This document shows positions 8,785-42,062 of a stretch of DNA of 64,000 bases, piece by piece. This DNA comes from Planctomycetia bacterium (GTDB lineage: Bacteria; Planctomycetota; Brocadiia; Brocadiales; Brocadiaceae). A model generated the notes under the pieces. The model did not search any database. It was given only the letters and a program-made list of their open reading frames with translations, and had not been told where the DNA came from. Made by a program: the position numbers and the translations under genes. The DNA is taken from positions 558,001-622,000 of the forward strand of contig JABTVC010000001.1 of NCBI GenBank assembly GCA_015075005.1. Direction: 5' to 3'. Within the stretch, counting starts at the first letter, position 1; each line of letters begins with the position of its first letter.

Positions 8785-9890
8785 ATGAAAGTTGAAAAAC
8801 CGAAATACGGGAGAGAAGGTAAAGAGATTCCCGAAAAGAAGTTATCCGTCTTTGAGAAATATTTAACACTCTGGGTTTTGCTCTGTATCGCTGCAGGCAT
8901 TGTTTTAGGAAAGGCGGCCCCCGAGGTTGCGGTCAAGTTAGATTCCCTTGCTGTATATGAAGTTTCTATTCCTATTGCGATATGCCTGTTTTTTATGATG
9001 TACCCTATCATGGTGAAGATAGACTTTGCGGAAGTTATAAAAGCAGGGAAGACTCCCAAGCCGGTTATTCTGACCCTGGTTATTAATTGGTGTATTAAAC
9101 CGTTTACGATGTATTTCATCGCAACATTTTTTTTAGGGTATCTGTTTAAAGATTTTTTGCCCGGCACAGAAATTCTTAAAGACGGAAGCACGGTGGGGCT
9201 TTACCGTTCATATATATCGGGAACTATCCTTTTAGGAATTGCACCCTGCACAGCAATGGTTTTAATGTGGGGATATTTAGCAAGGGGTAACGACGGGCTT
9301 ACCCTGGTGATGGTGGCCATAAACTCTTTGACTATGCTGGTTTTATATGCCCCGCTGGGTGGTTTCTTATTAAAAGTGAACAGGATGCCCATTCCCTGGG
9401 AAACAATAGCGCTATCAGTTTTAATTTACGTTGCCCTTCCTCTTGTTGCGGGGTATTTTTCCAGAAAATGGATTATCAAGACGAAAGGGTTGGTGTGGTT
9501 TCAGGAAAAATTCTTACACTTTTTAACACCGGTATCCATAACAGCACTTCTGGCAACCCTCGTTCTTTTATTCTCATTCAAGGGCGATGTAATCATGACT
9601 CAAAAACAAGTGATTCTTTTTATAGCAATTCCTCTTTTTATTCAAACCTGTCTTATTTTTGCAATAAGTTATGCGTTAGCAAGATTCTTCAGGTTGGGCT
9701 ATAGGGATGCTGCACCCGCCGCAATGATTGGGGCAAGCAATCATTTTGAAGTGGCTATTGCCACATCAACGATGCTTTTTGGCCTGTCATCGGGGGCATC
9801 TCTGGCTACTGTTGTGGGAGTATTAATTGAGGTGCTGTGATGCTCATGTTGGTTAAGATATGTCTCAAAACACAAAATTGGTTTAGATAA
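8785..9890 (+). CDS. acr3: ACR3-type arsenite efflux permease, C-terminus frameshifted
   Basis: About ten membrane helices and the family signature [19 protein letters not shown], with the conserved Cys at residue 155, identify an ACR3 permease that extrudes arsenite in exchange for protons. The track reading stops at 9840 after VVGVLIEVL. Adding one base at about 9836 restores EVPVMLMLVK, the expected family C-terminus, and the frame then runs to TAA at 9888. The lesion is therefore one missing C. It lies in the arsR operon. Confidence 0.85.
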
Positions 9891-10018
9891 CAGACATTTT
9901 TAATTTCTGAAGGGTCGTTTGTTAAACCCCAGGTTAATTTGGAGAAGTCCACTCTTGGGAGGGGCTTGTGGTGGGTTTATTCATTGTTTGACAAAAAGAT
10001 TGAAATCCTATACATTTT

Positions 10019-11039
10019 ATGATTATAAACATCTTCACCCTTATCATGTTGTTTGTTGGTTTATTGTCTCTTTCCTGGGCGGATTTTTATTATATGCAAC
10101 GGTAAGGGTTCTGAGTCGTTTTGAAGCAATTGTACCGCTAGAGGCAAAGAGTAAATTTGAACAGAAAGGTTATCTGATATTTCTCCTGGCTTGCGTGGTG
10201 CTGGCTGTAAGGATGCTTGCCTGGCCGTGGTTCTACCTTATGCTCCAGAGCTTTGTGTCTGAAGTGCCAGGTGCGATGTGTATGTTCGGGGTTACCCAGA
10301 TTTTACCGTCTACGGTAACCTTTTTACAGATCATTAAACCTATCTCCTTCTTTATGATGGGCGGCTGGCTGCTGTGTTATTACGTTGACAAATCTACACC
10401 GACAGCGCCCCTTGCCAGGAAGAACCTGATCTTTCTTCTCATCGTCTGTAGTGTACTTCTGTCCGATAGTATTGCGGATATCTATTATGTATCTGTATGA
10501 AACCATTGATGTCTGTTTCCTGCTGTGCCACCTTCTTTGATGTCCCTCTAAGGCCTTCAGCCATGGGTCCCCAGGCCATCTTTGGAAGACACTTTCAAGA
10601 TTTTATTTATAGGGTATTATCTGACAAATACAGCACTTATCACCTTGTTATTTATATCTCTTTCAAAGAAATGGTCTTCATTAGCATCATTACCCAGGAA
10701 GATTATCATGTATAGCCAGGCCGCTATAGGGATTGTCAATATCCCCGTTGTGATCTATGCGTATATTGAAAACATTGCCCCCAGACTTATGCAATTGCCT
10801 TACCATCACTGTATTTATTGCTTTATGGGAAATGGCCTGGTACTGATGCCCCCATTATGCTTGGGTTATTTATCATTGGTACCTTTGCTATCGGTTGGAT
10901 GGGTATGCTGCGTCTTCTTTGCATGGTTTCAGAAACACACATTGTAACAGAGAGGCTTTTGGTGAAGGTAAATAGCTTATCGGTCTTTTGCCTGCTTGCC
11001 TCCCTTGTGATGGTGACAATACATTTGATGCTTACATGA
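10019..11039 (+). pseudogene. Polytopic membrane protein with Cys/His motifs, several frameshifts
   Basis: Four overlapping frames fit together as one protein of about 330 residues. A start at ATG 10019 gives MIINIFTLIMLFVGLLSLSW; the next frame carries GGFLLYATVRVLSRFEAIV to 10500; another carries SCCATFFDVPLRPSAMGPQ; then KIIMYSQAAIGIVNIPVVI, PYHHCIYCF and DAPIMLGLFIIGTFAIGW. About eight membrane helices and two Cys-rich motifs (SCCATFFD and YHHCIYC) are visible. Shifts fall near 10077, 10497-10590 and 10846. It precedes a NosL-like gene, so copper or other metal handling is a reasonable but unproven idea. Confidence 0.45.
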
Positions 11040-11053
11040 CAAAATTTTTCACC

Positions 11054-11083
11054 GGGTGGCACGGATAAACAAGTTTGTCCGTG
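11054..11083 (+). repeat. R2 hairpin repeat, copy 2
   Basis: GGGTGG followed by CACGGATAAA (11060-11069), CAAG loop and TTTGTCCGTG (11074-11083). One G-T wobble relative to copy 1. It lies between the membrane protein gene and the NosL-like gene. Confidence 0.7.
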
Positions 11084-11132
11084 TGATTATGAATTGTCTG
11101 TATTTGCTTCAGTTAACTAATTGAATTCTCAC

Positions 11133-11518
11133 ATGACAAAAAAATTCTGGATCGGACTCATTATTATTTTCATCATTGCGCTCATAGGGGTATCTTATCA
11201 AAAATTCGTGAAGAACCCGCGTTGTGCTTACGATGGTTCAGCAGTCACACCCATCTATGAGGTTGATATTGTCCTTAAGGATCGGTCAACAAAAAATTTT
11301 GTTCTATCTATTGTGCGGTGCAATGGTTCAAAAACAATGTCCACCGGATGGATCATGTTATCGTTACCGATGAAATGAGGGGGAATAAAATAGACTCATA
11401 TATGGCCTATTTTGTAGAAAGTGAACTGGTCACAAATAAAACCAACGACAATCGCATCCATGTATTCCAGCAACGTCAGGACGCTATCACCCATGCCGAA
11501 AGTTTCACGGCACGATGA
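11133..11518 (+). CDS. NosL-like periplasmic protein, frameshifted
   Basis: The N-terminus MTKKFWIGLIIIFIIALIGV is a signal anchor. The domain then reads RCAYDGSAVTPIYEVDIVLKD and, after a one-base shift in an A6/T4 homopolymer at about 11289-11299, CSIYCAVQWFKNN, HVIVTDEMRGNKIDSYMAYF and NRIHVFQQRQDAITHAESF. The order C..DG, CS..CA, VTDE..G..ID, AYFVESE resembles NosL-type copper-binding or chaperone proteins. The frameshift position in a homopolymer favours a sequencing artefact. Confidence 0.55.
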
Positions 11519-11740
11519 CAGACGACCCGTTTACCATGGACGAGTTTTGAAGCATCGCAATAAAAAGCAAGGCTTACCATATCGAACAAGGAATAATGAA
11601 TGTCGAAGGATAAGAAAACTTCATAATTCGAAATTCCCTGCTCGTTATTCGTTATTCATTACACGGTTAAATTAATCCGTAATTTTAACTTAGCTCTTAT
11701 GGGGAATGCAGACCACAAGGTGTAGGTGCCACGTTATTTG

Positions 11741-13766
11741 CTAAAATTTTGACAAATGCTTATATACCCCATTTTTAGCAATCTCACTTAAGATATTCTT
11801 TGTCGTAAAACCATAGTGATCTGCTAATATTTTTGCTGGTGCCGAGGCACCATACCGATCGATTCCAATGACAAGACCATCGAATCCAACAAATTCATAC
11901 CAGCTGCTTTTCCCGGCGGCTTCAATAGCCACTCGTTTCTTACAGGAAGGTGACAGTATGCTATTCTTGTACTCTTCAGATTGAGACCGAAACAGCTCAA
12001 AGCTAGGCACACTGACCAGCCTTGCCTGGACACCCTTCGCCTGCAATTGTAACGTGGCTTCAAGGGCAATAGAGACCTCTGAACCGGTTGCCATAAGGAT
12101 AATCTCAGGGGTTTTGTCGAATCCTTCAATATATAAGCGCCATGTTTTAATTGACTTTGTGGTGGATAGATTGAGCGGTTAATTACCGGCACATCCTGGC
12201 GGGTCAGGATCAGAACCGTTGGGCCATCTTTATGATTGAGCGCCTCTACCCATGCTGCGGCGGTTTCTGTGGCATCTGATGGCCGTATTACAAGCATGTT
12301 TGGAATTGCACGCAGGGATGGTAGATGTTCGATGGGTTGATGGGTTGGCCCGTCTTCCCCGACAAAATACTATCGTGGGTAAATACATAGATCACCTGAA
12401 TCCCCATTAGGGCTGCAAGTCGAATGGAAGGCCTCATATAATCCGAGAACATCAGAAAGGTCGAACCAAAGGGATAACACCTCCGTAAAGTGCCAATCCA
12501 TTTAAAATACCACCCATGGCATGCTCCCTGACCCCAAAATGAATATTCTTCCCTGTAAATCTATTTTTGTCCAGAGAAGGGGCACTTTTGATGTACGTCT
12601 TTGTCGATGGGCAAAGATCAGCAGAGCCACCCAGAAAAGGGGGTATCCGCTGTGCAATTACCTGCATCATTTCTCCGGATGCTGAACGGGTAGCCATTGA
12701 ATCTTTTTTTATGGTTTTGAGTAATTCGGATTCCAAATCTTCAGGAATCTCTTTTTAAAAGTAGGCATCCCATACCTGGGAAAGATTTGGGTCTTCTTTT
12801 TCCCTGTATTAAACAGAGACTGCCAGTCCACATACTCTACCCGGAGTTCTGCAATACGGGTTTGACAAAGCTGTTTTACTTCATCCGGGATGTAGAATGC
12901 CGGGCTTTTAGGCCAGCCGAGGTTTTCTTTTGTTAATTCGAGTTCTTTCGCTCCCAGCGGCTCGCCATGAACTGATGCCGTATTCTGTTTATTGGGACTG
13001 CCTTTGCCAATGTGAGTCCTGGCAATAATCAAAGAAGGCTTCTCTTTTTCATTTCGTGCCGATTCGATAGCCCCGGCAATTTCATTATGGTCATGCCCGT
13101 CGATCTTGTATACGCGCCAGTTATAGGCCTCAAACCGTTTTGCAACATCTTCTGTAAAGGTAAGAGATGTATTTCCCTCAATAGAGATTTGGTTACTATC
13201 GTAAATATAAATAATACGGGAAAGTCCGAGATGTCCTGCGAATGAAGCTGCCTCTGATGTTATGCCTTCCATCAGTTCACCATCGCTCACAAGACCATAA
13301 ATATGATGGTTAATAATAGTTCTGCCATCTTTGTTAAATCGGTCAGCTATCACCCGTTCAGCCAGCGCCATACCCACTCCGTTGGCAAATCCCTGACCGA
13401 GAGGTCCCGTAGTAACTTCTACCCCGGGGGTATGCCCATATTCAGGATGACCGGGAGTCTTGCTCCCAAATTGGCGGAATTGTTTTATTTCATCTAAGCT
13501 CAGATCGTAGCCAAAAGATGTAACAAAGAATACAATAACATGGAGCCGTGCCCGGCAGACAGGATAAATCTGTCCCGGTTTGGCCATTGTGGGTCTTTTG
13601 GGTTAAATCGCAGGAATTGCATCCAGAGAACAAAAGCGATGTCCGCACATCCCATAGGGAGACCGGGATGACCTGATTGCGCCTTTTCAACAGCGTCTGC
13701 AGAAAGCATTCTTAAGGTGTTTGATGCCAGATCAATTTTGTGTTTATCTATTTTACTTATAAGCAC
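11741..13766 (-). pseudogene. tkt: Transketolase, multiple frameshifts
   Basis: Thiamine-diphosphate transketolase of the pentose phosphate pathway. Family segments appear in order but in different frames: [20 protein letters not shown] and [53 protein letters not shown] and [24 protein letters not shown] and HFGVREHAMGGI; GEDGPTHQPIEHLPSLRAIP; then ATGSEVSIALEA and FGFDGLVIGIDRYGASAPA-type text. The summed length of about 675 codons is normal. The start is taken as GTG 13766, which has GGAG upstream. At least four shifts (near 13545, 12735, 12450-12300 and 12120) are needed. Confidence 0.8.
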
Positions 13767-21265: not shown

Positions 21266-21736
21266 TTACTTCATTGTGTCAGGAAAGCAATACGTCTGTT
21301 TATAGGTTTTCGTTACTTCGGTATTTCTTTCCAGGAAAATATCCCCATGGTAAAGAAGCCATGCATGGCCCTCGAGCCTCTTTTGTGCCTCACTATCAGA
21401 TAACGTATCGTATTTCACTCCAAAACATACCTGCACATCCATCCCCATTTTACGCAAAAAATGATAGAAAACCAAGGTGCGCTTGAGACAGGTATTTTCG
21501 CCTGCCATGGAATTACGACTCAGGATATAGTCCGTAAACTTCACGGCCTTAGCTCTTAATTTCTCCAGTTCCAGGTGCTGGTACACCTTCAAATCCCGTG
21601 GTGTTAAGATGCTCATAAGCCGGGGAATGGAGAAGAGTCTGAGCATGACAGGTAACAAGATAATCACGAAAAAAATTTGAGTAAAAAGCAAAAGCTCCTC
21701 AAAAGAACGAAAATTTGCCCTGAACTTTTTTAGCAT
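21266..21736 (-). CDS. Lasso-peptide biosynthesis B2-type protease
   Basis: A 156-residue transglutaminase-like cysteine protease of the lasso B2 family. Numbering from the ATG at 21736, a membrane segment (LLLFTQIFFVIILLPVML) precedes the catalytic region: Cys83 in AGENTCLKRTLVFYHFLRKMG, His124 in LEGHAWLLYHG and Asp132 in YHGDIFLE. In lasso and related RiPP pathways this enzyme removes the leader peptide after delivery by an RRE protein. The gene lies 10 nt after the PqqD-like gene, the standard B1-B2 order. Confidence 0.8.
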   Translation of the reverse strand: MLKKFRANFRSFEELLLFTQIFFVIILLPVMLRLFSIPRLMSILTPRDLKVYQHLELEKLRAKAVKFTDYILSRNSMAGENTCLKRTLVFYHFLRKMGMDVQVCFGVKYDTLSDSEAQKRLEGHAWLLYHGDIFLERNTEVTKTYKQTYCFPDTMK

Positions 21737-21746
21737 GCTGGTCTGA

Positions 21747-22031
21747 CTACCTATCTTCAACCTTCACTAATTTTTCACGAACAAGTTCATTCATGAGATT
21801 AAGCACACTTTCTGTGGCTTTTTCCGGTGAGACATCAAATTCTCCTGAAACTTTTTTGCTTATCTCTTCAGGTGTAAGGCCACTGCTCAGCATCTGCCAG
21901 ATACGCAGTCCTGTTTCATTTAAAGTGAAGTACATCTTCGTTCCCAGATGCAGAAGGACGGCCTCCTTGCCCTCTAACTCCGTAACAACTACTTCAGGGT
22001 CGGGTGTTACCCGCTGGTTTAACTGGATCAT
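21747..22031 (-). CDS. PqqD-family RiPP recognition element (B1-like)
   Basis: A 94-residue protein with the PqqD winged-helix text: VVTELEGKEAVLLHLGTKMY, FTLNETGLRIWQMLSSGL, TPEEISKKVSGEFDVSPEKA. Such proteins bind the leader peptide of a RiPP precursor and bring it to tailoring enzymes. GGAGGGAATCG before ATG 22031 is a strong ribosome binding site. It is directly followed by the B2-type protease. Confidence 0.85.
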   Translation of the reverse strand: MIQLNQRVTPDPEVVVTELEGKEAVLLHLGTKMYFTLNETGLRIWQMLSSGLTPEEISKKVSGEFDVSPEKATESVLNLMNELVREKLVKVEDR

Positions 22032-22172
22032 CGATTCCCTCCGCTCATGTACTGTACAAGGAATTTCAAATAACTACAAAGTTACCAAGAAATGCAAGGG
22101 TTAAAGATTTTCAACCCCTACGTTTAAGGTTATAAGAAATTTCAATGCCAGGCCTGAAAGGCTGTCAGGATA

Positions 22173-22197
22173 TAGCAGGGGGTAAAGCCCCCTGCTA
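22173..22197. repeat. Perfect hairpin in the 22.0-22.4 kb intergenic gap
   Basis: TAGCAGGGGG (22173-22182), TAAAG loop, CCCCCTGCTA (22188-22197): a 10-bp perfect stem. The 380-nt gap between the PqqD-like and radical SAM genes also holds shorter palindromes (CAGGCCTG, GCCCTTCGGGC) but no recognisable ORF. It could insulate the two transcription units. Confidence 0.6.
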
Positions 22198-22413
22198 AAA
22201 CTTTGTATTTCTTAGTCCAGTGGCTTCACCCCTGGCTATGTGCTTTCTGCCCTTCGGGCATAGATTGTATTGAAGAGTGGACAAGTACACAAAGTATTTT
22301 CTTTATGTCAGAGTGTCTTTGCGGCCAAAAGTCGCCAAAGATATAAATAAATACAAAATACTCTATTATTTCCTATGCACACCCCTTGCGTTGCAATTTT
22401 CTTTACCTTGCTT

Positions 22414-23439
22414 TCACAACGCGTTACACGAAACGGGTGACTTACGATTCTTCCAAACAAGACTTGCCCACGGACTCTCGGGATAGTGTGCAAGCCAGTC
22501 CATCTTTCTGAAATAATTCAAGCAGTACCAACAGGGAAAATAATCTGCATCTCTAAATGTACCATTGCTATGGTGTTCAAGCTTATCTTCCTGAAACTTC
22601 CCGATAGCCCGAACCAAACGCCCATAAGCCTCAGAAAAACTCATCTCATTCAAATTACCTAGTATATCATCGTTGCCCACATCTTCTCCATGTCCGGATA
22701 AATTACAGCATACGGTAACATTGCCACGCCAGTCGATGTTAATTTCCTGCATTTGTAACGGAGCACAGGGCAAGAGATCGGTCGTATAGTATCCCGGTGC
22801 TATAACTATAGGAATGGAAAAGGTTTTCTGCAGTTGCAAGATGACGGCCTCTGTCTGCCTTCTTTCTATCGGCGAAAGATCCATATTTCCTGATACAATT
22901 CGGGGAGTTGAAATAAGATGACCAAACCTGAGTCCCCGGCTTCCCAGTTTCGTTGCAAGCCCTGCTATTTCATGTAATTCATCCCGATTGTGGGACCTAA
23001 TGACCGTATTGAAGGTGAAGGGAATGTCCTTTGCCACACAAATGCTTACGGCCTGCATCACCCTCCGGTATGAACCCTTCCCACGGAGCATGTCATGTGT
23101 CTCTTCCTTTGCACCTTCTAAACTAAAGGTAATCCCTGTAAGCCTATTATGATAGGGGAGCAACATCTCATAAATGCTGGTAAAATTCCAACCGTTCGTG
23201 ACAAAGCCAAATTTATATCCCGCTTCTGATACCATCGCGAGTATCTCGGTGAATCTGGGATACAACGTAGGCTCTCCGCCAGTAAAAGAGAGGTGTTCGA
23301 AGCCATGTAGCCGGGCACTTTGGAGAATCCTTTCTATAATCTTTATTTTCAGCTCGCCGTCACCACAATGCCTTCCATCAAGGCAGTGATAACAGCCTAG
23401 ATTACAGCGATTGGTAAGTTCTATCAATATGCCTGGCAT
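22414..23439 (-). CDS. Radical SAM enzyme with C-terminal auxiliary-cluster cysteines
   Basis: The N-terminus IELTNRCNLGCYHC holds the CxxxCxxC motif (C12, C16, C19) for the SAM-binding [4Fe-4S] cluster, followed by LSFTGGEPTLYPRF (GGEP). The C-terminal third has further Cys groups (LLPCAPLQMQEI, NVTVCCNLSGHG, YFPCWYCLNYFRK) resembling a SPASM or twitch domain. Such enzymes modify RiPP precursors or other peptides. ATG 23439 comes directly after an R1 repeat copy. It lies between the kinase and RRE/protease genes, all on the same strand. Confidence 0.85.
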   Translation of the reverse strand: MPGILIELTNRCNLGCYHCLDGRHCGDGELKIKIIERILQSARLHGFEHLSFTGGEPTLYPRFTEILAMVSEAGYKFGFVTNGWNFTSIYEMLLPYHNRLTGITFSLEGAKEETHDMLRGKGSYRRVMQAVSICVAKDIPFTFNTVIRSHNRDELHEIAGLATKLGSRGLRFGHLISTPRIVSGNMDLSPIERRQTEAVILQLQKTFSIPIVIAPGYYTTDLLPCAPLQMQEINIDWRGNVTVCCNLSGHGEDVGNDDILGNLNEMSFSEAYGRLVRAIGKFQEDKLEHHSNGTFRDADYFPCWYCLNYFRKMDWLAHYPESPWASLVWKNRKSPVSCNAL

Positions 23440-23446
23440 TTATATC

Positions 23447-23560
23447 ATTACTGTATAAAAACTTCTTTTTTTTAAGTTTTTTACCTCCCCTTTCATCCCT
23501 TCCTTGTGAAGGAGAGGATTGAGGGGTGGTCAATTTAGCTGCGGCTATGCTGCGCTATGT
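23447..23560 (-). repeat. R1 repeat, copy directly upstream of the radical SAM gene
   Basis: Read on the minus strand: AGCGCAGCATAGCC, AAATTGACCACCCCTC, a hairpin with CCTTCACAAGGAAGG, GGGGAGGTAAAAAACTT, AAAAAAGAAGTTTTTATAC and TAATGATATAA, ending 7 nt before the ATG. It is a near full-length copy of the family. Confidence 0.75.
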
Positions 23561-23640
23561 ATTCTGTATCCTTAATCTACGGTAAAACTCATATTCCTTT
23601 TTGGTAACAGCTCAGCCGATTTGAAATGCATGCCGAATTA

Positions 23641-23717
23641 CAACCCCCCTCCCCCATTTTCTAAGGGGGATTTCGTTAAGTCCCCCTTAATAAAGGGGGA
23701 TTCAGGGGGTTGTGTTT
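23641..23717. repeat. Palindromic C/G-rich repeat
   Basis: The segment starts ACAACCCCCCT and ends AGGGGGTTGTG, with internal CCCCCTTAATAAAGGGGG and CCCCCATTTTCTAAGGGGG hairpins. Ends are inverted copies, as in small palindromic mobile repeats. It lies between the kinase and radical SAM genes. Confidence 0.6.
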
Positions 23718-23747
23718 TTCTTGTGGTTCATTCTTGCTTTGCCTTCA

Positions 23748-24807
23748 TTAAGGTTTTGGTAACAGTTCAGCACCCCACCTAAACTCCTGCCACTGGTGGG
23801 CGGGGGATGAACTGTTACAGGCCTTGATATTAGACAATAGGAAATCTGATATTTTCTCAGGACATTCATACAAATCACGCCCTGCAAGGAGTTCATAACT
23901 ATATGACTGAGATACAAGCCGCCTAAGAACCTCTAAATGTACATTGACCGCCTGACGTTTAAAAAATAGTGACGCACTTTGCCTCATCAATTTGATGTAA
24001 GGCAGTTGTTTTATCTATGGGTATCAACTTACTCACAGGCTGAGGAACTATGTGGGTGTAGATTAATACCCTTGGAATACAGCCTGGCCGAAATCGACCT
24101 GGGTAGACCGTTTCTACGTCTAAAAATCGCTTGGTATGGTCTCCCATTGCCGATCCCTTAAGATGAGGCGCTATTTCAGGGAACTGATGGGCCAAGACGG
24201 GATCAAGATAAAAATGCCTCCGAAAGGTCAGGGCTTCTATCCCGTCCGCTGATGGTCTGACTAAAATGGCATCATCTGAGACATAATGCCAGCCCTGACG
24301 GACCAGACTAAGGGCAGTGCTGGATTTGCCGCTGCCTGATTCTCCCAACAAAAGGTATCCAATTCCATTCCTAACAAGCCCGGCAGCATGAAGATCATAA
24401 AAACCTAAGGGAGAAAGCAGATGGATAAGGCCTATAAGAAAGAAGTTATACTTCGATAAAGGAGGTTTTTCTTTAAAAGAGCGATGAAGAGTTACAATCC
24501 CTATTCCCGCTTGAGGCTGGAGCTGGAAAATGGATAATCCGTCGGTGAGGGAAACATGACCATCTGCCTCATAGACTGATAAGTCATAGCAGGAAAAAGG
24601 CCCTGATGCCGAATGTGGGATATCCACGGGTGCATCCGTCGTGATAAATTTCAACTCAATATGAACGGAATGAGCTATACCGCTTCGTTTAACAAAGGGA
24701 AGAGGAGAGAAGAATTGCTCAATTTCCCCCTCAACCCCTTGCCCTTCCCATTTGACCCCAACGGTTATTTCGCAGAAAGAGTAGAGATTGACCCCAGCTT
24801 TAATCAT
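23748..24807 (-). CDS. HPr-kinase-like protein of a RiPP locus, one frameshift
   Basis: The kinase core is readable: YDLHAAGLVRNGIGYLLLG, Walker A GESGSGKSST (about residues 155-163 from ATG 24807) and WHYVSDDAILVRP. HPr-kinase homologues in paeninodin-type lasso loci phosphorylate the C-terminal Ser of the precursor, and the precursor here also ends in Ser. The frame breaks near 23975-23985 (after CVTIF); the next frame continues LMRQSASLFFKRQAVNVHLE and ends at 23748. The start is uncertain: ATG 24807 or 24828; the longer reading from 24945 overlaps the precursor gene and is not believed. Confidence 0.7.
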
Positions 24808-24865
24808 CTCAACTTCCCAACCTCTCATCTTCCCATCATTTTTTTTATAAGTTTCCTTGTTATAA

Positions 24866-25045
24866 CTACGACACAAAGGTACCAAAGAATCCGTTGTTCC
24901 CTGTAATCTTCGTCGCATCCCCGTGTTTCGTAAGCTTTGGCTCAATGAAGGTTAATTTAGGTTCGGTAAAATGCCTTTTGGTTTGAGAATCACCTACCAC
25001 CTTAACTTCCTGGCCTATGTGTCCTGCTGAAATATTTTCTGACAT
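24866..25045 (-). CDS. Lasso-type RiPP precursor peptide (59 residues)
   Basis: Too short for the usual ORF cut-off. ATG 25045 follows an AAAGGAG site; stop TAG is at 24866-24868. The leader ends with FIEPKLTKHGDATKIT, which matches the lasso-leader pattern aromatic-x-x-P-x-L...G.....T recognised by PqqD-like RREs, and a second copy, FTEPKL, lies 7 residues earlier. The C-terminus is GNNGFFGTFVS. If Thr48 is the usual -2 Thr, the core is about ten residues and ends in Ser59. The core lacks an Asp or Glu at positions 7-9, so a classical lasso ring is unlikely. The HPr-kinase-like gene follows 58 nt downstream. Confidence 0.8.
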   Translation of the reverse strand: MSENISAGHIGQEVKVVGDSQTKRHFTEPKLTFIEPKLTKHGDATKITGNNGFFGTFVS

Positions 25046-25171: not shown

Positions 25172-28100
25172 TTAAGGACGGAATCTGCCAAAGAATCCCT
25201 TCTTGAATTTTACACGCCTTGATTCAGTATTTGTTAATCGGGGTGCCGCAGAAGATACCCCTTTCCCCACCCCTAACACATCCACAAGGAACTTGAACGA
25301 CTTTTTCTCCTTTAAACAAATAATGAAGTGAGCATTTACGAATTCTCCTGGGCTCAGTACGCCATCCGCATAAGCATCGGTCAATGGAATGGTCATTATT
25401 GACCCTTCTCCACCATGCCCTCCATCTGCATTATGGAGGAGATTTCCATTTGTTAGCGTTTTCACCTGAACCGCAAGGTTTGAAAGAGACGGACTACCGC
25501 CCTTGTTTGTGAGTTTGGCATCAAAACTGAATTTCCCGACAAATCCTGGAGGACAGCCCGTAGTATCAGAAGTAGTCGTATATGTTGATTTTATAGGTTC
25601 AAAGAGAACGAGATCATTAATGATTTCCGGTGTTGGAGCAGGCGTTGGTGTGGGCTCCACAGTCGGTATCGGTGGGGGTGTTGCCGTTGCCGTTGCCGTT
25701 GGTGTTGGTGTTGGTGTTGGTGTCGGTGTCGGTGTCGGCAATTTTATTTCAACAGAGGCAGTATCCAAAGCAGATAATCCATCATTATCCGTAACCCTCA
25801 AGAGAACAGTTCCACTGAATTCGACATTCCATGTGTGATTTGTTGTTGGTGAGGTAGTAGTTACATCGTAGATACCATCATTATCCCAATCCCATTCATA
25901 AGAAACAATAGCTCCATCTGGATCAAAGGAACCGCTAGCATCAAAGGTTATCGGTGAACCCACAGTTCCAGTATATGGTCCATTAGCCTCTGCTATGGGA
26001 GATTTTAACGACGTTTCTATTGCCTCTATAATTGCCTCGACAACATCTTCAGCATTTGGAGCGGTAAATACTTCTCCTCCTGTTCCTTCTGCTAAATTTG
26101 AAAAATAAGAATAAGCAGTGAAATCTCCACCGATTGAAATTGCATATATTGAAGCTGGGTCTACTGCCAAAGCGGCAGCTACCACATTGCTTGTGATATA
26201 GCCTGTAAACGGTTCTGGATCATGGGGCGGGGCATCACCCATAATGATTATTACCTTTTTGACATTATTTCGCCAAGCACCTAATCCTTCTGTATTTATT
26301 GATCTTATCAGTGCAGAAAAGACGGATTCTGGCCAATCATTACCGCCATATGCTGATAAACCCTGGATTGCTGTAATTATAGATGCTTTATCAGTAGAAA
26401 ATGGCAAATTTACGCTATACGTGTAATCGCCTGGATCACCGTATGGATCTATAGGAAAATCTTTATAATTAACAACGGCCATCCTCCAATCATCCATTTT
26501 AGAGTCAATAGTATTCACTATTTCCGTTGCTGAAGTCTTAACTGCATCTATGTCATCCCACATACTTCCTGTGGTATCAATGACAAATATTAAATCTAAA
26601 GCTCCTGGAGTAATTGAGCGAGACCTACTAACGTATATTCCTGTTTCTGGGGCATCGGTATTTCTCCCTTTTACAAACCAGTTGATAATAGCCCCACCTG
26701 ATAAAATCTTCTTCCAATCATCTTTTGATGGGGTATATTCGTTTGTGACGAGCTCGGGGGAAGAAAATCTCGAGGTAGCGAAATTCGTATCATAAAATTC
26801 AACGGTAAAACGATCATTTCTATGTGATGGACCTCCCCCATTAGAATCCCATTTAAAGGTTGGAGGATCCTCAGATCCTACAATAAAATTTTCTTCTGGA
26901 TTTGTAGGGTCAGCAGCAACATTATGCTCACTAAAAACAGCTCCATATTTCACTTGATCTGAGATTGACTTACCGTTAATCAAAGCATTCCAAAATGCAG
27001 ATAGAGTATGAGGCTTAGAATTCGTAAGAGTGTCCCAAATGGAATTGTCTCCAAGTGTTATTTCATCCCCAGTCTCTGATGAACTGTCATATAAATCCCA
27101 TAGAATCCTTTGTACAGCAAGTTCGTTATCTTCCCCTGCACTTATATAACCGGTGTTTGCTTCTAAATCATAAGAAATGTCAACTGAATTTGCATCAAAA
27201 TTATAAGCTGAATACATTGTATCCCCAACATATGGAATACCAAAGCCACCAGAACCTGTCTCTTGTTGCAAGGATGTACCGAAATAGGTTGGCCAACCTT
27301 CTCCCCAAGCTAAACGTATCCCTATGTCTTTCCCCAGCCGTTCTGCTAAATTTTCATCTATAGAATGGTTTCCGCCGGGATTATTTTCCAACGAATACAA
27401 AGCTGCTATATAATGACCATATTCGTGATGTATAGTATCTTGTGAAAACCTTCTCCTCCCAGTTATATTCAGTGATTTATCACCTGGATCATAATACGAT
27501 ACGCCTCCAGAAACTGGAAAATTTACTTCTAAAGGACCAGGTATACTTCCGGTTAGAGTTCCTATATAAGTAGAAGAAGTAACTAATGCATCTGCAACTG
27601 CAAAAGCAGTATTAGCCTCACCTGTATTATTTGCAGTTAAATTTATAATCAGATTAGTACCGTCTAAAACGTCTACATGTGCATCCAAAGGAGATTCCAA
27701 TTGATAAGTTGACCCGGGCAAACCAGGTGGTTTTACATAAAACCCCGTTGATTTCGCCAAAACTCTAATAAAGATGTCCCTTCCATTTTGTAAAAGCCCA
27801 TCATCATTGTTAATTGTTGTGTTATATGCCCCTGTAGCATCTGTCCAAACCGTTGTAACCAACTCAGAACCAATAAGTTCATCATCGTAAATTTCTATGG
27901 GAGAGAATCTGACAGGATGCGTATTTCCATTGCTATCTGTCCATTGAATTACCCCAGAAATATTTATATAGCCAGCTTCTGTAATGACGGTTTGTTTACT
28001 AATAATATTACTTTCAACACCTTCTTTTTTAAGCAGTTGATCCATCAACTGATTTAACACTTTTTCGTTTTCTGTTAATTTGAGAATAGGAAAAGGATCA

Positions 28101-28657
28101 TTTGTCTCAATAGCTCTTACGATCACTAATGAATTTACTAATTTCTTTAATTCCTCAGTGGAAAGATGTCCTCGATTTTCTAATTCTTGCATTTCCAACT
28201 CAATAAAACTACCACTTCCTGCTAACACTTTTTTATCTTCCGTCACAAGAAAATAAAGACTAGCAGAATTGCCAATCTTGTTCCCAGCCATATCAAAGGC
28301 ATTCGCACACACAGTGACTTTCGATTTACCAATATCGGTAATTCTAAACGAAATATTAATTTCTTTGCTCTTATCCTTTGCTATGTTCTCCAAAGTATAT
28401 TTGTTCACACTAAACAGTTCCAAATTACCCTCGATCTTCAAGCTTACGATAGTTTTAGTAATATCTATCCTTGGAGTAACTGACAAATTAGCTGTTAAAA
28501 TATTTCCCATTGCTGGAGAACCATCAGAAATATTTATTGTCAAATCTATTGGGGAAAGAGGTTCTGCCCATATCTTTTGATATGTACAAAGTATGTAGAG
28601 AAACAGTACTAAAGAAATAAAATTTTTAAACGACTTACTTTTATCCATACGCCGCAT
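25172..28657 (-). CDS. Giant secreted protein: HExxH metalloprotease-like, VWA and PKD domains
   Basis: A signal peptide follows the start (FKNFISLVLFLYILCTY). The N-terminal third has Ig-like and carbohydrate-binding-like text; HHEYGHYIAALYSL at about residue 410 is a zinc-protease HExxH motif. A von Willebrand A domain begins near residue 685 with LDLIFVIDTTGSMWDD (MIDAS), a PKD domain near 890 (ANGPYTGTVGSPITFDASGS) and a Thr-Pro repeat linker near 975-1010, then a C-terminal beta domain. ATG 28657 has AAGGAG upstream and lies one base after the preceding stop. A surface adhesin or protease is likely. The operon is headed by riboswitch copy 2. Confidence 0.75.
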   Translation of the reverse strand: MRRMDKSKSFKNFISLVLFLYILCTYQKIWAEPLSPIDLTINISDGSPAMGNILTANLSVTPRIDITKTIVSLKIEGNLELFSVNKYTLENIAKDKSKEINISFRITDIGKSKVTVCANAFDMAGNKIGNSASLYFLVTEDKKVLAGSGSFIELEMQELENRGHLSTEELKKLVNSLVIVRAIETNDPFPILKLTENEKVLNQLMDQLLKKEGVESNIISKQTVITEAGYINISGVIQWTDSNGNTHPVRFSPIEIYDDELIGSELVTTVWTDATGAYNTTINNDDGLLQNGRDIFIRVLAKSTGFYVKPPGLPGSTYQLESPLDAHVDVLDGTNLIINLTANNTGEANTAFAVADALVTSSTYIGTLTGSIPGPLEVNFPVSGGVSYYDPGDKSLNITGRRRFSQDTIHHEYGHYIAALYSLENNPGGNHSIDENLAERLGKDIGIRLAWGEGWPTYFGTSLQQETGSGGFGIPYVGDTMYSAYNFDANSVDISYDLEANTGYISAGEDNELAVQRILWDLYDSSSETGDEITLGDNSIWDTLTNSKPHTLSAFWNALINGKSISDQVKYGAVFSEHNVAADPTNPEENFIVGSEDPPTFKWDSNGGGPSHRNDRFTVEFYDTNFATSRFSSPELVTNEYTPSKDDWKKILSGGAIINWFVKGRNTDAPETGIYVSRSRSITPGALDLIFVIDTTGSMWDDIDAVKTSATEIVNTIDSKMDDWRMAVVNYKDFPIDPYGDPGDYTYSVNLPFSTDKASIITAIQGLSAYGGNDWPESVFSALIRSINTEGLGAWRNNVKKVIIIMGDAPPHDPEPFTGYITSNVVAAALAVDPASIYAISIGGDFTAYSYFSNLAEGTGGEVFTAPNAEDVVEAIIEAIETSLKSPIAEANGPYTGTVGSPITFDASGSFDPDGAIVSYEWDWDNDGIYDVTTTSPTTNHTWNVEFSGTVLLRVTDNDGLSALDTASVEIKLPTPTPTPTPTPTPTATATATPPPIPTVEPTPTPAPTPEIINDLVLFEPIKSTYTTTSDTTGCPPGFVGKFSFDAKLTNKGGSPSLSNLAVQVKTLTNGNLLHNADGGHGGEGSIMTIPLTDAYADGVLSPGEFVNAHFIICLKEKKSFKFLVDVLGVGKGVSSAAPRLTNTESRRVKFKKGFFGRFRP

Positions 28658-28658
28658 C

Positions 28659-29198
28659 CTATTTCTCCTTCTCAAAAAGTTTAAAAGTCGATACCATTTT
28701 AAAGAATAAATCATCTTGGTATTTTGTATAAACATCTGATATGATGAAAAATTTATCCTTTACAGGTATAACTAAATTGGCCGGTTTACTTTCAAATCCT
28801 GCTTTAATCTTAAAAAACATTTTTGCTTTTATATCGTTAAGCAAATATTCTTTCTCTCCACCCTCATTAAGAAAATAATTACACGTTCCTTGACTTCCAT
28901 TGAAAAAAGCATCAATTGACAACCCCTTTGGGTTTCGATAATAAAATATTGTTATATCTCCACTATATTCTACTGTTCTTTTCTTTCCTGGAGGATAAAA
29001 ATTTACAGCATTATCTTTCCCTGTAAAATCTGTTTCTTTTTCATAATGCCAACCTTCGGGATATTTAATTTCATACCTATATGCAGGATTTTTATAAATA
29101 CTCCAATTGATAGTATCTTCATTTGCATCTATTTTTTTATATCCGAAGAAAACTATCGCTATGGAAAAAACAAGAACTACTTTATTGATATTATTCAT
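28659..29198 (-). CDS. Secreted PsbP-like/unknown small protein
   Basis: A signal peptide (VVLVFSIAIVFFGYKKIDA) is followed by NPAYRYEIKYPEGWHYEKE, a text common in PsbP-like and lipoprotein-associated domains, and a beta-rich body ending FKMVSTFKLFEKEK. ATG 29198 is preferred, with AAGGAA upstream. The stop is one base before the next gene, so the two are translated together. Probably an extracytoplasmic partner of the giant protein. Confidence 0.6.
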   Translation of the reverse strand: MNNINKVVLVFSIAIVFFGYKKIDANEDTINWSIYKNPAYRYEIKYPEGWHYEKETDFTGKDNAVNFYPPGKKRTVEYSGDITIFYYRNPKGLSIDAFFNGSQGTCNYFLNEGGEKEYLLNDIKAKMFFKIKAGFESKPANLVIPVKDKFFIISDVYTKYQDDLFFKMVSTFKLFEKEK

Positions 29199-30641: not shown

Positions 30642-34302
<3,661 letters not shown>

Positions 34303-34312
34303 CTGTACAGGT

Positions 34313-35845
34313 TCAATGATCATGGGTTGCCCCTGACTTACCCAGATCAGCCTTGAGAATAAAGCTGTTGCGCGCAACATACCTCTCTCCCGGCGAGAGG
34401 CCGCGTAACACCTCTGCCCATCGTCCGTCGTTCCGCCCCAACTCCAATGGACGAGCCTCAAACATGTCGCCATACTGTACAAAAACAACAGACCAATCAC
34501 GAAGTGTTTGTATTGCATCGACTGATACTGCTACCGGCACTGTCACCTCTTCCTGAACAATTTCGACAGTAACGAAGAGGCCGGGACGCCAGCGCCCTTC
34601 CGGATTTTGCACAACAACCCTCCCCTGTGCAGTACGGGTTTGCTCACCAACGAGTGGGCCTAAATACGTCAGCGTGCCAGTTGCTTCCAGATTAAATATC
34701 TTAGACCTTACCGTAACGTTTTGTCCAATCCTGACCACGTTCAAGTCTTTAGCATACACCGTGACCGCCACCCAAACCGTACGTAAATCAGCAATAGCAA
34801 AGATGTCGGCATCTTCCTTAATAGCTTCACCTACGGCAATCTCCTTTTTAATAACAACACCATCAAACTGTGCTTTTAGCTCATAACGTATAAGCCCCCT
34901 GCCTGTCATCTCCGGAATACTATTCAAATCGGATGGGGAAAACCCCAATGCGAGTAGTTTTTGGATAGCCCTTTGCATGTTTATCTCTTCTTCTGCCAAT
35001 GCCTGCCGGCTGGCGAGATAGTCTTTTTCTGAAGAGATCTTCTGCTTCCAAAGACGCTCTTTCCTTTCAAATGTTGCCCGGGCCAGTTCCACTCGTTTCA
35101 TAGAAGCCCTGTGTTCACTCTTCAGTTCTGCCACTTCCCGGCTGTCAAGAACGACAATAACTTCACCATGTCTGACCATATCGCCAAGGTTTTTTTTTAC
35201 CTCAGTTACCACACCTGAAACTCTTGGTACGACATGCACCACCTTATCCGCATTGAGTTCGATCTCTCCCGGAAGCTCAAGTATGGTCTTCATCTGCACC
35301 GGACCAGCAGTTTCAACAACAATTCCAGCGCTTTGTATCGCCTCCGGCGTAAGCTCGACCCTTCCCTCTATCTGCGAATATTCCCAATGGTATGCATTGC
35401 CTTTCCATTCTGCTAACACCCTGACATCAAAGGAGTGCGGCTCTTCAACAACCGTGTTACCACATAGATACCCACCCTCGTTCCGGAAGTTAATCACATC
35501 CACCCTGCCACCAAGCCTGTGTAATTCTATAGTCAGTTTTACCGTATCATGCTTAACTATTTCTCCTCTATTAAATGCATAGACTCTGAACTGTGGAGGA
35601 ACACCCCGTTCATAAATTGTGATCTCAACCTGAAAATCATCCTCTGATAATAATCTGCCTCCATGAGGTCCCTTTACCTGGTCACTTCCATGATGTTGAG
35701 AGGCAACGTCCTCATGAGATTCACGAACTGGTGTCTTTTCCATGCGAAGAATAATATACGCCAGAACAATGCCCGCCAGGATGACAATGCCAATTGGTAA
35801 CATCTTCTTAAAATAAATCATATGATATCTCTTCTTGTCCCACAT
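34313..35845 (-). CDS. RND periplasmic adaptor (CzcB/HlyD family)
   Basis: One N-terminal membrane anchor (MLPIGIVILAGIVLAYII) and a His-containing linker (HGSDQVKGPHGGRL) precede the adaptor fold: GEIELNADKVVHVVPRVSGV, LDSREVAELKSEHRASMKR, an alpha-hairpin, and VWVAVTVYAKDLNVVRIGQ. The C-terminus is also His-rich (ATHDH). It links the inner-membrane pump to the outer-membrane channel. ATG 35845 has AGGGG upstream, better than 35863. Length 510, long for the family because of an extra N-terminal domain. Confidence 0.9.
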   Translation of the reverse strand: MWDKKRYHMIYFKKMLPIGIVILAGIVLAYIILRMEKTPVRESHEDVASQHHGSDQVKGPHGGRLLSEDDFQVEITIYERGVPPQFRVYAFNRGEIVKHDTVKLTIELHRLGGRVDVINFRNEGGYLCGNTVVEEPHSFDVRVLAEWKGNAYHWEYSQIEGRVELTPEAIQSAGIVVETAGPVQMKTILELPGEIELNADKVVHVVPRVSGVVTEVKKNLGDMVRHGEVIVVLDSREVAELKSEHRASMKRVELARATFERKERLWKQKISSEKDYLASRQALAEEEINMQRAIQKLLALGFSPSDLNSIPEMTGRGLIRYELKAQFDGVVIKKEIAVGEAIKEDADIFAIADLRTVWVAVTVYAKDLNVVRIGQNVTVRSKIFNLEATGTLTYLGPLVGEQTRTAQGRVVVQNPEGRWRPGLFVTVEIVQEEVTVPVAVSVDAIQTLRDWSVVFVQYGDMFEARPLELGRNDGRWAEVLRGLSPGERYVARNSFILKADLGKSGATHDH

Positions 35846-36031
35846 TATTGATCCCCTGTTCATTTTCTGCAGCCACAGGCTTTAGCCGTTCGGCTAAGCT
35901 CACGCCGAAGCCAGTGCAAGCTCATCCTCGAACCTGTCGGGGAATGGCGCATCCCTTCGGTTTACTCAGGGCAAGCTCTAAAGGTTGCAGCTACCAGAAA
36001 CTCGTATAATTAAAATGAAATTTCTATACAA

Positions 36032-39000
36032 TTAACCTACGATAAAATTGGATTGTTTTATCGTTAGCAATCTTTTCGGAAACCATTGATAGAGTGCAGG
36101 TATCACAAAAAGGGTCAGGAAGCTGGAGAAACAGACCCCACCAACGATCACCGTTGCCAACGGTTTCTGTATCTCTGCCCCTACATCCGTAGATATGGTC
36201 ATCGGTAATAATCCAATAATATCTGCCAGGACAGTTATGAGTACAGGCCTGAGTCGTGTTGAAGCAGCCTCTACGATAGTATCTCTCGCTTCTTTTCCTT
36301 TCTGTTGAAATTCATTGATAAATGATACCATTACTGTGCCGTTTAATACGCACAGTCCAAAAAGCGAAATAAACCCTACCCCTGCTGAGATACTCAGCGG
36401 CATATCCCTTAAGAATAGAGCCACAATCCCTCCTGTTGCCGCAAAAGGGACATTTGCGTAAATAAGGGCGGCGTTTTTAAAGGAACGGAAACTCATGTAG
36501 AGAAGGATGAAAATTAACCCCATGGAAATGGGGAGGACGATTGCAAGGCGATTCCTTGCCCGCTGCATATTCTCAAATTGGCCGCCCCAGTCCAGGTAAT
36601 ATCCTGCGGGGATATCCACCCTTTCCATATCTTCTTTTGCGCCTCTGCTACAAAGCTGCCGATATCCCTGCCGCGTACATTACATTCCACTACGATACGG
36701 CGATGCCCGCTTTCACGGCTGATCTGTGCAGGCCCCTCTTCAACGGAGATATCCGCCAGTTGGCTGAGTGGTACACGCACACCACCCGGGGCGCTGATCA
36801 GGATGTTTTTGATTTCCTCCACACTGTTCCTTGCCTCCTCGATAAAACGTACCAGGAGGTCGAATCTCATCTGCCCTTCCAGCACCTGTGATGCAGCCTT
36901 ACCGCCAATGGCCGTTGTAATGACATCCTGTATATCCGATACGTTGATCCCATAACGGGCAATGGCGCTTCGATCAATCTTTATCTGCACCACAGGCAGT
37001 CCTGTCACCTGTTCTACTTTCACATCCTCAGCCCCCCGGATAGCAGTAACAACCCGTTCGATCTCCTCTGCCTTCGGCTTTAAGACCTCAAAATCTTCAC
37101 CAAAAAGCTTGATGGCAATATCAGAACGAACACCGGCTATCAACTCACTGACCCTTAGCTCGATGGGCTGTGAAAAACTATACTGCATGCCTGGTATCTT
37201 TTCCAAATCCTCTTCCATACGTTTAATGAGACCTTCTTTGGTCTTAGCTGTCTGCCACGACTTCCTGGGTTTAAGCATCACAAATACATCACTGATCTCC
37301 TGCCCCATAGGGTCTGTAGCAATCTCCGGCCGTCCGGTCTTGGATACAACCGTTTCTACCTCTGGATACTTCATAAGGGTCTTTTCTATAAGGGCAGAGA
37401 GTTCTACCGATTCATTTAAAGAGACACTGGGTAAGCGTAGCACGTTGATTGCTATGGCGCCTTCATCCAATTCAGGCATAAACTCCGAGCCTAAGAAGGG
37501 AACCAGGACAAGGCTCGAAATAAAGCACGCTGCGGCAGCAATAATGGTTACTCTGGGATGGAATACAGCCTTTTGTAACAATGGTTTGTAACGACTCTTT
37601 AAAAACCGCATTATGCGGTTATCCGTTTCTTCAGTATATACCTTTGTCTTTGTCTCTTTTTTAAAAATAAGGACGCAAAGGGTGGGCATAATGACAAGGG
37701 CAACAAAAAGAGAACTCAGCATGGCAAGACTGACTGTAAGGGCTACAGGCTTGAACATCTTGCCTTCAACACCTTGTAATGTCAGGAGCGGCACATAGAT
37801 GACAATGATAATTCCCACGGCGAAGAAGATGGGTCTCCCCACTTCCTGAGACGCAAGCAATATCGTTTCCCTATAACTCGCTGTGTTTTTTCTGAGGTTG
37901 AGACGTTGAACGATATTTTCAACGGTACAAACTGAGCCATCAGTGATATTACCAAAACCCAGGGAACCGATACTCATTACGGTAGCTGCAATCCCCAGGT
38001 GATACATGCCTGAAAAGGTTAATAGTATTGTTAAAGGAACGGAGAAGGCAATAAGGAGTGAGACCCGCCAATTTCCTACCGTCAAAGTAAGAATTATTAT
38101 TATCAGGATGATACCGAAAATGACGTTGCTAATAACGGTATGAATAACATCATTGACAAGTCTGGTCCGATCGTAAAATTGTATGATATCAACCCCTTTT
38201 GGCAGGTTTTGTCTGATTTCTCCAACCTTCTGTTTTATTCTTTGTACAACAGTCCTGCTATTCTCACCCTTAAGCATCATGGCAATACCCGTAACTACCT
38301 CCCCTTTGCCATCCTTGGTAACTGCGCCATAGCGTACCTCCGGTCCCACCACCACATTTGCGAGATTTTTTATATAAATAGGGGTACCCTCCATTGTGGC
38401 GTGGACAACAATATTTTCAATATCAGCTATTGAACTGATAAGACCAATTCCCCTGATGAGGTATTGCTCAGATGCATGCTCTATGTATTGCCCGCCTGCA
38501 TTGGCATTATTGGCAGCCAGGGCATCGAAGACCTGGCGGAGGGTGATATCGTAAGTAATGAGCTTTTGGGGATCCACCAGCACCTGGTACTGCTTTACAA
38601 AGCCACCAAAACTGTTGACCTCAATAACCCCTGGCGTGGTAAGCAACCTGGGTCTGATCAACCAATCCTGTATGGTTCTTAGTTCCATGGCGTCTTTGCC
38701 TTCACCAGCAACTACGTATTGATAAATCTCACCAAGCCCTGTACTAATCGGCCCCATGATAGGTTGAGCCTTTAAAACCTGCGGTAGTTGTTCCTTTGCA
38801 GTCTGTAAACGCTCTAAGACCAATTGACGGGCGAAATAGATGTTTACGTGATCATCGAAGACTACCGTGACCTGTGAAAGCCCTGTCTTTGAAAGAGAAC
38901 GTACCTCCACAACATCTGGTAAACTGCTCATGGAGAACTCAATGGGAAATGTGATAAGCTTTTCTGCTTCAACAGGGCCGAGTCCCGGCACCTCGGTATT

Positions 39001-39147
39001 GATTTGTACCTGGTTTGTTGTAACATCGGGGACGGCATCAATCGGCAAGCGTATGATGTAATATAAACCCATTCCTATAATGACACATATCACGACAATG
39101 ACAAGGAAACCCTGTTTTAATCCATATTCGATAAGTCTGTTGATCAT
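36032..39147 (-). CDS. Second heavy-metal RND pump (CzcA-like), one frameshift
   Basis: Starts MINRLIEYGLKQGFLVIVVI with [20 protein letters not shown]. The frame breaks near 36620 and resumes with DIPAGYYLDWGGQFENMQRA to 36032; the summed length of about 1040 residues is normal. The TM4 signature is LGFGNITDGSVCTVEN: the first acidic residue (normally D or N before FG) is Gly here, unlike the downstream pump. The start lies 4 nt after the adaptor stop. Metal specificity is open. Confidence 0.88.
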
Positions 39148-39151
39148 AAGC

Positions 39152-40483: not shown

Positions 40484-40528
40484 ACGTTTCTTTTTCCCTT
40501 TTAAGTAATTGAGTTATATAGGAATTTC

Positions 40529-40622
40529 AATCTTGTGGGATTCCCCTCTGGAAAGCGGGGATCCAGGGGTGTGTAAATCAGACGGAACACACCTCCGCCC
40601 TCCTTTTTAGAGGGGAGCTTAA
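40529..40622. repeat. Palindromic intergenic repeat between TolC-like and adaptor genes
   Basis: TTCCCCTCTGGAAAGCGGGGATC and a later CCCTCCTTTTTAGAGGGGAG form hairpins; GGTGTGT and ACACACC flank the centre in inverted orientation. Same style as the palindromic element at 23641-23717. Confidence 0.5.
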
Positions 40623-40669
40623 AAACTGCTGCCAGAAGCAGCCTGATTTAAAATATCTTCTTATCCACT

Positions 40670-41995: not shown

Positions 41996-42062
41996 ATCCA
42001 TAACAAAACCTTTCTCATTAAACCAAGCAATGTATGATAGTTCACACGGATTTTGAACTTTT

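Follow-up and report, generated by a model that had tools for sequence, protein, structure and literature searches.

The 64,000-nucleotide stretch analysed here (the window; contig JABTVC010000001.1 of the Planctomycetia bacterium assembly GCA_015075005.1) carries on its minus strand a cassette of five genes for a ribosomally synthesized and post-translationally modified peptide (RiPP), namely a short precursor, an HprK-like kinase, a radical SAM/SPASM enzyme, a PqqD-type RiPP recognition element (RRE) and a B2-type leader protease, and the gene set reaches upstream as far as the gene for a large exported protein. We give about an even chance to the reading that this is a RiPP pathway with a lasso-type leader, an RRE, a kinase and a B2 protease, in which a radical SAM maturase takes the place of the lasso cyclase and which is coupled to exported surface proteins. 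Our best reading is that the pathway is a radical-SAM cousin of the LPP and paeninodin pathways, and that its peptide cooperates with a system for sorting or assembling surface proteins. What is new is the combination of lasso-type leader handling, a kinase, a radical SAM enzyme, a very short FFGxFxP core and a family of exported proteins, sharing a domain that we call SURF, that tracks the cassette. The parts of this reading that come directly from the sequences are the gene content and its conservation, the leader spacing, the lack of a nearby cyclase, the core motif, and the co-occurrence and adjacency of SURF.

All five genes that the initial annotation had placed in this region were recovered as open reading frames (ORFs), with family matches for the enzymes (Table 1). 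An AGGAG-like stretch lies directly 5' of the precursor ATG, the leader holds two FxEPKLT repeats, and the predicted cut after I-T-G would leave the core NNGFFGTFVS; models of lasso leaders match this precursor only under their cut-offs. The PqqD protein passes the Pfam cut-off and falls under those of two lasso-PqqD models (51.8 of 80 and 49.1 of 70 bits), while the B2 protein, whose gene overlaps the end of the PqqD gene, passes its own (NF033537). The Cys and His of what we take to be the expected B2 catalytic triad are kept in 8/8 aligned proteins, and the third place is occupied by Glu. Among solved structures the radical SAM enzyme matches SkfB best (E 2.2e-18), then PqqE and then cytosylglucuronate decarboxylase, with YydG lower. 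Alignment with relatives puts the start of the kinase probably near 24807 rather than at 24945. By eye, the kinase reads H-x14-G-x2-G-x-GKS-x15-DD (H, +15 G, +18 G, +20 G, +21 K, +22 S, +38 D, +39 D), which includes the His-Lys-Asp-Asp motif of paeninodin-type kinases upstream of a frameshift and has the spacing reported for BsfK in the available parts of the papers on these peptides (PMC9266682, PMC10368454). The kinase ORF stops at 23959, and the conserved last ~60 residues lie in another frame, at about 23996-23748; this frameshift is either a mutation or an assembly error.

We compared leader and core across 25 precursors from anammox bacteria, a deltaproteobacterium, Nitrospirota and Thiohalocapsa, leaving aside the candidates from Acidobacteria, KSB1 and genome G612 and the remnant in G022 as too different or broken; locus L134 yielded no precursor. 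Residues -17, -14 and -12 are F/Y, P and L in 25/25 (F in 23, Y in 2), the spacing of the published lasso leader (YxxPxL, Thr at -2) as the part of that literature available to us gives it, so the lasso-like leader of the initial annotation is borne out. The register was fixed by placing Thr at -2, and this Thr is hence no independent test. Across the 11 aligned anammox precursors, 21 columns are invariant. The cores are 6-14 residues long (once 19), carry F[GSN]xF in 23/25 and the complete FxxxFxP in 19/25, and contain at least one Ser or Thr in 25/25. Asp or Glu at core positions 7-9 was found in 0/25. A C-terminal Ser occurs in 1/25, the window's alone, and the proposed paeninodin-type phosphorylation of such a Ser is therefore not upheld; as a trait of the family it was rejected. 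Two Nitrospiraceae loci (L126, L129) have a second precursor type, with the core S[IA]PFSPIPN; in the L126 genome it is the one read, and SURF was not found there.

The cyclase family PF00733 has a match somewhere in all 10 cassette genomes searched. The contig with the cassette is free of a match in 6 of them, and in the other 4 the match lies at least about 150 kb off, some of these contigs being short (12 kb in G023, 36 kb in G027). This agrees with the initial observation of a neighbourhood without a cyclase.

The five genes stand together in 8 of the 11 anammox loci that were fetched, the window's own counted; the exceptions are L032, without PqqD and B2, L033, which in G031 is a second, truncated copy, and L038, where neither a kinase nor a B2 gene passed the cut-off. 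A gene of the NTP_transf_5 family directly follows B2 in seven loci (L034, L035, L037, L039, L040, L041 and L122), and no match to it was found in the window, L032, L033, L036 or L038. Among 62 genomes of the order, the precursor was found by profile in 12 and an orthologous radical SAM enzyme (E < 1e-120) in 10, the window's genome included; some radical SAM match at 1e-15 occurs in 34, those beyond the 10 being generic. The radical SAM gene is present in 10 of the 12 precursor-bearing genomes, and in the remaining two the precursor sits at a contig edge (G018) or in a deletion remnant (G022). The latter locus (L201, contig C76) has a precursor ORF and then a short fragment of the kinase gene that runs straight into the end of a B2 gene, as if a deletion had taken out the middle of the cassette. 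With the radical SAM gene conserved in this way and no cyclase close by, the view that it belongs to the set holds. The initial interpretation is thus upheld in part, for the lack of a near cyclase, the lasso-type leader and the conserved radical SAM enzyme, and not for C-terminal Ser phosphorylation; beyond what it described, SURF exported proteins, an N0-domain protein with an FKFEFDP tail and NTP_transf_5 proteins recur around the set.

A scan of public genomes for the radical SAM enzyme returned 326 relatives, whatever their kind, and 80 of them were retained. Seventeen of the 80 lie in cassette-like loci (E 5e-45 or better) and come from several phyla: anammox bacteria, a deltaproteobacterium (68% identity), Nitrospirota, KSB1, Acidobacteria, Thiohalocapsa and another proteobacterium. 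The other 63 match at E 4e-18 or weaker. Besides an alignment of 10 rows (A1), a radical SAM tree of 25 rows was drawn, with 8 of its 22 inner branches open; the deltaproteobacterial and Nitrospirota rows fall among the anammox rows, an interleaving that would fit horizontal transfer. Four stretches in viral contigs fit a pattern, none of which encodes relatives, and 371 plasmid records matched, every one below 60% identity (22-28% among the 10 matches listed). In two lineages (L037 of G045 and L038 of G001) the C-terminal part of the radical SAM gene has the same in-frame TAG where the other aligned proteins have Trp, shortly past the last Cys motif, which is either an early end or something odder. 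Two acidobacterial loci (L131, L132) are distant relatives with a different core (TTFFQAVTSGATN in L132), two additional genes of about 171 and 294 aa, and an LTD-domain protein that is weakly SURF-like.

The exported protein upstream of the precursor ends with the SURF domain, of ~120 residues, and then a 36-residue tail that finishes in FFGRFRP and resembles the precursor core. Its HEYGH motif presumably indicates a metallopeptidase. Structure prediction gives SURF a confident beta-sandwich fold and leaves the tail disordered. Searches of Pfam and NCBIfam returned no credible family, PDB sequences gave no match at E 1, and structure comparison retrieved generic beta-sandwich folds only (best E 2.3e-3); SURF is an undescribed domain. 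Nine of the 11 fetched anammox cassette loci include a SURF ORF. In 52 of the 61 SURF ORFs of the loci examined the domain lies at most 60 aa from the C-terminus (12/13 in the window's family, 11/16 in G001, 13/13 in G044 and G045, and 16/19 outside anammox bacteria). The other domains of these proteins vary and include beta-propeller, beta-helix, C-type lectin, Lcl_C, papain-type protease, CBM9, FG-GAP, Big_1 and others, and some of the proteins show none.

The distribution of SURF follows that of the cassette. Within the order, SURF was found in 10/62 genomes, all of them among the 12 with a precursor, and in 0/50 of the others; the precursor genomes without it are G015 and G022. Across 392 Planctomycetota genomes SURF occurs in 9 and the radical SAM enzyme in 9, and 8 genomes have both. 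In G018, SURF and a precursor occur with no radical SAM match, and G015 is the reverse, which leaves G018 as the 1 of 383 genomes that has SURF without the radical SAM enzyme. For Nitrospirota, SURF was searched first and the radical SAM enzyme afterwards: SURF is in 6/395 genomes and the radical SAM enzyme in 8/395, all 6 SURF genomes have the radical SAM enzyme, and G612 and G657 have the radical SAM enzyme without SURF (weak in G657). After dropping the seed genome, one of the six, Fisher's p is 3e-10, a value that takes no account of relatedness or physical linkage. The five further Nitrospirota genomes have pairs of SURF and the N0-domain protein (KF, described below) together with FFGxF cores. 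SURF matched at 1e-4 in 5 of the 10 genomes behind the named non-anammox loci, once as a 28-residue fragment, and at that threshold there was no match in G419, KSB1 and three acidobacterial genomes. Matches are also spread over many contigs off the cassette, with 21 in G001 and 15 in G044. On contig C10 of G044 (L204) a second precursor, at 9112-9288, adjoins a SURF gene at 9540-12239, and the enzymes' loci found so far are not on that contig.

KF, the second recurrent companion, is small and exported; it combines an N0/STN-like domain with a tail of the kind FKFEFDP or FQFTFDP. It accompanies SURF genes in G001, G018, G027, G044, G045, the deltaproteobacterium and Nitrospirota. Within the order, matches at E < 1e-20 are confined to those five G-numbered genomes, all precursor-bearing, and weaker, generic matches occur in 13 more. 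In the predicted structure the N0-like domain is confident, and the tail forms a block with a predicted local distance difference test (pLDDT) score of 81 between linkers near 40-53. Fold comparison retrieved secretin N0 and FecR-like domains (E about 0.04) and 8 of 9 KF members match FecR_C (best E 3.5e-4), which is suggestive of kinship to N0/FecR-type domains.

Tails were counted over 463 ORFs of at least 100 aa from the fetched loci. FF[GR]RF.P ends 12 of them, all 12 SURF, and among the other 451 FxxxFxP falls within the last 14 residues in 9 (eight KF and one B2). Local scores of the SURF tails against the cores are mostly over background, not always: for 8 precursors, the weakest SURF score is equalled or exceeded by 2 to 53 of the 451 background ORFs, and we regard this test as supportive only. 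The idea that a tailed SURF and a separate KF tail protein are mutually exclusive was dropped, as both are adjacent in G018 (L200). At the DNA level the FFGRF pattern was swamped in many genomes by a recurring, apparently unrelated sequence, and protein profiles were used instead. Sequence of this kind, like TTCTTCGGTCGTTTCACTCC, is found in many genomes of the order (30 matches to the pattern in G003, 29 in G005) and has the look of a dispersed repeat, not of a coding region.

From the families of the enzymes, a course of maturation can be proposed. The PqqD/RRE protein would bind F-x-x-P-x-L in the leader; the radical SAM enzyme would modify or crosslink the short aromatic core, xFFGxFx(P); the HprK-like kinase would phosphorylate, and perhaps glycosylate, a core Ser or Thr, with help in many relatives from the NTP_transf_5 protein; and B2 would cut after [I/V]-T-x. 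The resulting peptide of ~6-14 residues would act outside the cytoplasm with SURF proteins, and in several lineages with KF as well, and might, more speculatively, sort, anchor or assemble them at the surface. We favour, as speculation, a single docking site common to the core and to the F-x-x-x-F-x-P tails of SURF and KF. The fuller proposal, in which a phosphorylated mini-peptide made by the radical SAM enzyme serves a new C-terminal sorting or surface-assembly system as its dedicated partner and the core, FFGRFRP and FxFxFDP are one docking handle, is tentative, and we rate it at a little under an even chance; if it is true, RiPP chemistry here builds or anchors a cell-surface layer and does not make an antibiotic. 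If the coupling to surface proteins is true, RiPP maturation is linked to surface-protein sorting, in anammox bacteria and in other phyla.

Several observations weigh against the surface-protein reading. The window's own core ends in FVS, without Pro, and so is outside the 19/25 with a full FxxxFxP. FFGRFRP tails occur on only 12 SURF ORFs, which belong to a single family, and are missing from SURF in other settings, and one unrelated background ORF outscores all SURF tails against the window core. G015 has the cassette and an FFSAF core yet no SURF; a related radical SAM enzyme without any SURF match occurs in G419, in G612 and in three acidobacterial genomes, and the cores of this group differ where one was read. 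Physical linkage explains part of the co-occurrence of SURF and cassette. The window copy of the cassette may be decaying, because its kinase is frameshifted and no NTP_transf_5 match was found in the window. Finally, an exporter was not identified, none having been searched for systematically.

In the PEP-CTERM/exosortase and GlyGly-CTERM/rhombosortase systems, one C-terminal domain is found on unrelated exported proteins and goes with a dedicated gene set. The window system is like these in having one C-terminal domain, varied exported proteins and a dedicated gene set, and SURF is restricted to machinery-bearing genomes; judged by the radical SAM enzyme, the single exception is G018, a genome that does have the precursor. 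It is unlike them in that no sortase-like enzyme was identified and the gene set is a RiPP cassette. The SynChlorMet cassette, as represented by NCBIfam models, also brings HprK-like, PqqD-like and radical SAM/SPASM proteins together; B2 and SURF are not known to be part of it. Membership was rejected, the ScmC, ScmD and ScmE/F models scoring 25.1 of 125, 31 of 100, and 66 and 68 of 400 bits. With the paeninodin-type and Bsf lasso peptides, as far as the available parts of those papers go (PMC9266682, PMC10368454), the cassette shares leader spacing, RRE, B2, kinase motif and, in relatives, a nucleotidyltransferase; unlike them it has no cyclase, no ring acid and no conserved C-terminal Ser, and has a radical SAM enzyme. 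RRE-Finder reported about 300 co-occurrences of discrete lasso-model RREs with radical SAM enzymes, and the available text of that account gives no kinase or surface-protein link, the word 'kinase' appearing 0 times (PMC7470986). We found no description of this gene set in the open-access literature, which does not show that none has been published.

An ordinary peptide natural product, for instance an antimicrobial or a signal, with the surface-protein genes as island cargo, is unlikely though it deserves serious weight. A patchy distribution and the mixing of phyla in the radical SAM tree would suit it, and published LPP and paeninodin clusters are likewise patchy and close to capsule loci, according to the available part of the 2026 LPP paper (PMC13381572). 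Against it, SURF genes are scattered over many contigs away from the cassette in both G001 and G044 (21 and 15 matches), SURF-KF pairs occur away from the cassette in G749 (L259) too, and 382 of the 383 Planctomycetota genomes without the radical SAM enzyme have no SURF, the exception, G018, having the precursor.

We consider it improbable that the product is an LPP-kind linear phosphopeptide for which the kinase and NTP transferase are essential and the radical SAM change is minor. By the accessible part of the LPP account (PMC13381572), LPP clusters have the same kinase, RRE and NTP-transferase set without a cyclase and a lasso-like leader motif; that gene set is complete in several of the relatives, with NTP_transf_5 directly after B2 in 7 loci, and the window is without an NTP_transf_5 match. 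The radical SAM gene is nevertheless kept between kinase and RRE in several phyla, an observation biased by the loci having been found via that gene, and B2 occupies the place of the signal-peptidase-I-like protease of LPP, a pathway that also includes an MsbA-like transporter. The cassette differs further in its leader and core, its tie to SURF and KF, and its occurrence outside Bacillota; by eye, the LPP leader motif YxxPxVLxHQxIxFETxxS is not matched by the cassette leader, FIEPKLTKHGDATKIT. The same paper describes the roles of paeninodins and LPPs as unknown, with biofilm speculated (PMC13381572). The SURF association hints at a job for a peptide class of this kind, and this related pathway brings candidate protein partners, SURF and KF, that are open to direct expression and testing.

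Equally improbable is that the enzymes act on the exported proteins' own tails (FFGRFRP of SURF, FxFxFDP of KF), the precursor being a helper or a parallel substrate. F-x-x-x-F-x-P endings are common to precursor, SURF and KF, and by eye 6 of the 12 tailed SURF proteins have [IV][TS] a few residues ahead of FF, like the I-T of the precursor. On the other side, the SURF and KF tails show by eye no leader-like FxxPxL pair, outside one family such a tail is absent from most SURF ORFs, and the N-termini of KF and SURF are signal-like, while the enzymes would be expected in the cytoplasm. The more general alternative of the initial annotation, that the radical SAM enzyme works on a different substrate, is kept as a rival. 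A decayed lasso locus invaded by a radical SAM gene, which the lasso-type leader, RRE, B2 and kinase and the frameshift in the window might evoke, is highly implausible and was rejected, since the same arrangement recurs across phyla, the cores are conserved without a ring acid in 25/25 and no cyclase is near in 10/10.

Table 1. Features of the cassette and its upstream neighbour in the window
Feature	Position	Strand	Support
Precursor peptide, 59 aa	24866..25045	-	ORF; profile; alignment of 11 anammox relatives
HprK-like kinase	23959..24807 (ORF open from 24945)	-	Hpr_kinase_C E 3.1e-9
Other-frame stretch resembling the C-terminal part of relatives' kinases	23748..23996	-	Alignment; not joined
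Radical SAM/SPASM enzyme, 341 aa	22414..23439	-	Radical_SAM E 2.4e-24; SPASM E 1.2e-4
PqqD-type RRE, 94 aa	21747..22031	-	PF05402 E 4.7e-17
B2-type (transglutaminase-like) leader protease	21266..21760	-	NF033537 44.8 bits, cut-off 33
Exported surface protein, 1187 aa, VWA + PKD + C-terminal SURF	25172..28735	-	ORF, domain search
SURF domain and tail	25175..25630	-	Alignment, model; FFGRFRP at C-terminus, about 25175-25195

Elsewhere in the window, positions 30642-42001 hold two sets of genes that presumably resemble heavy-metal RND efflux operons (pump, fusion protein and outer-membrane protein), a likeness that we judged from the translations alone.

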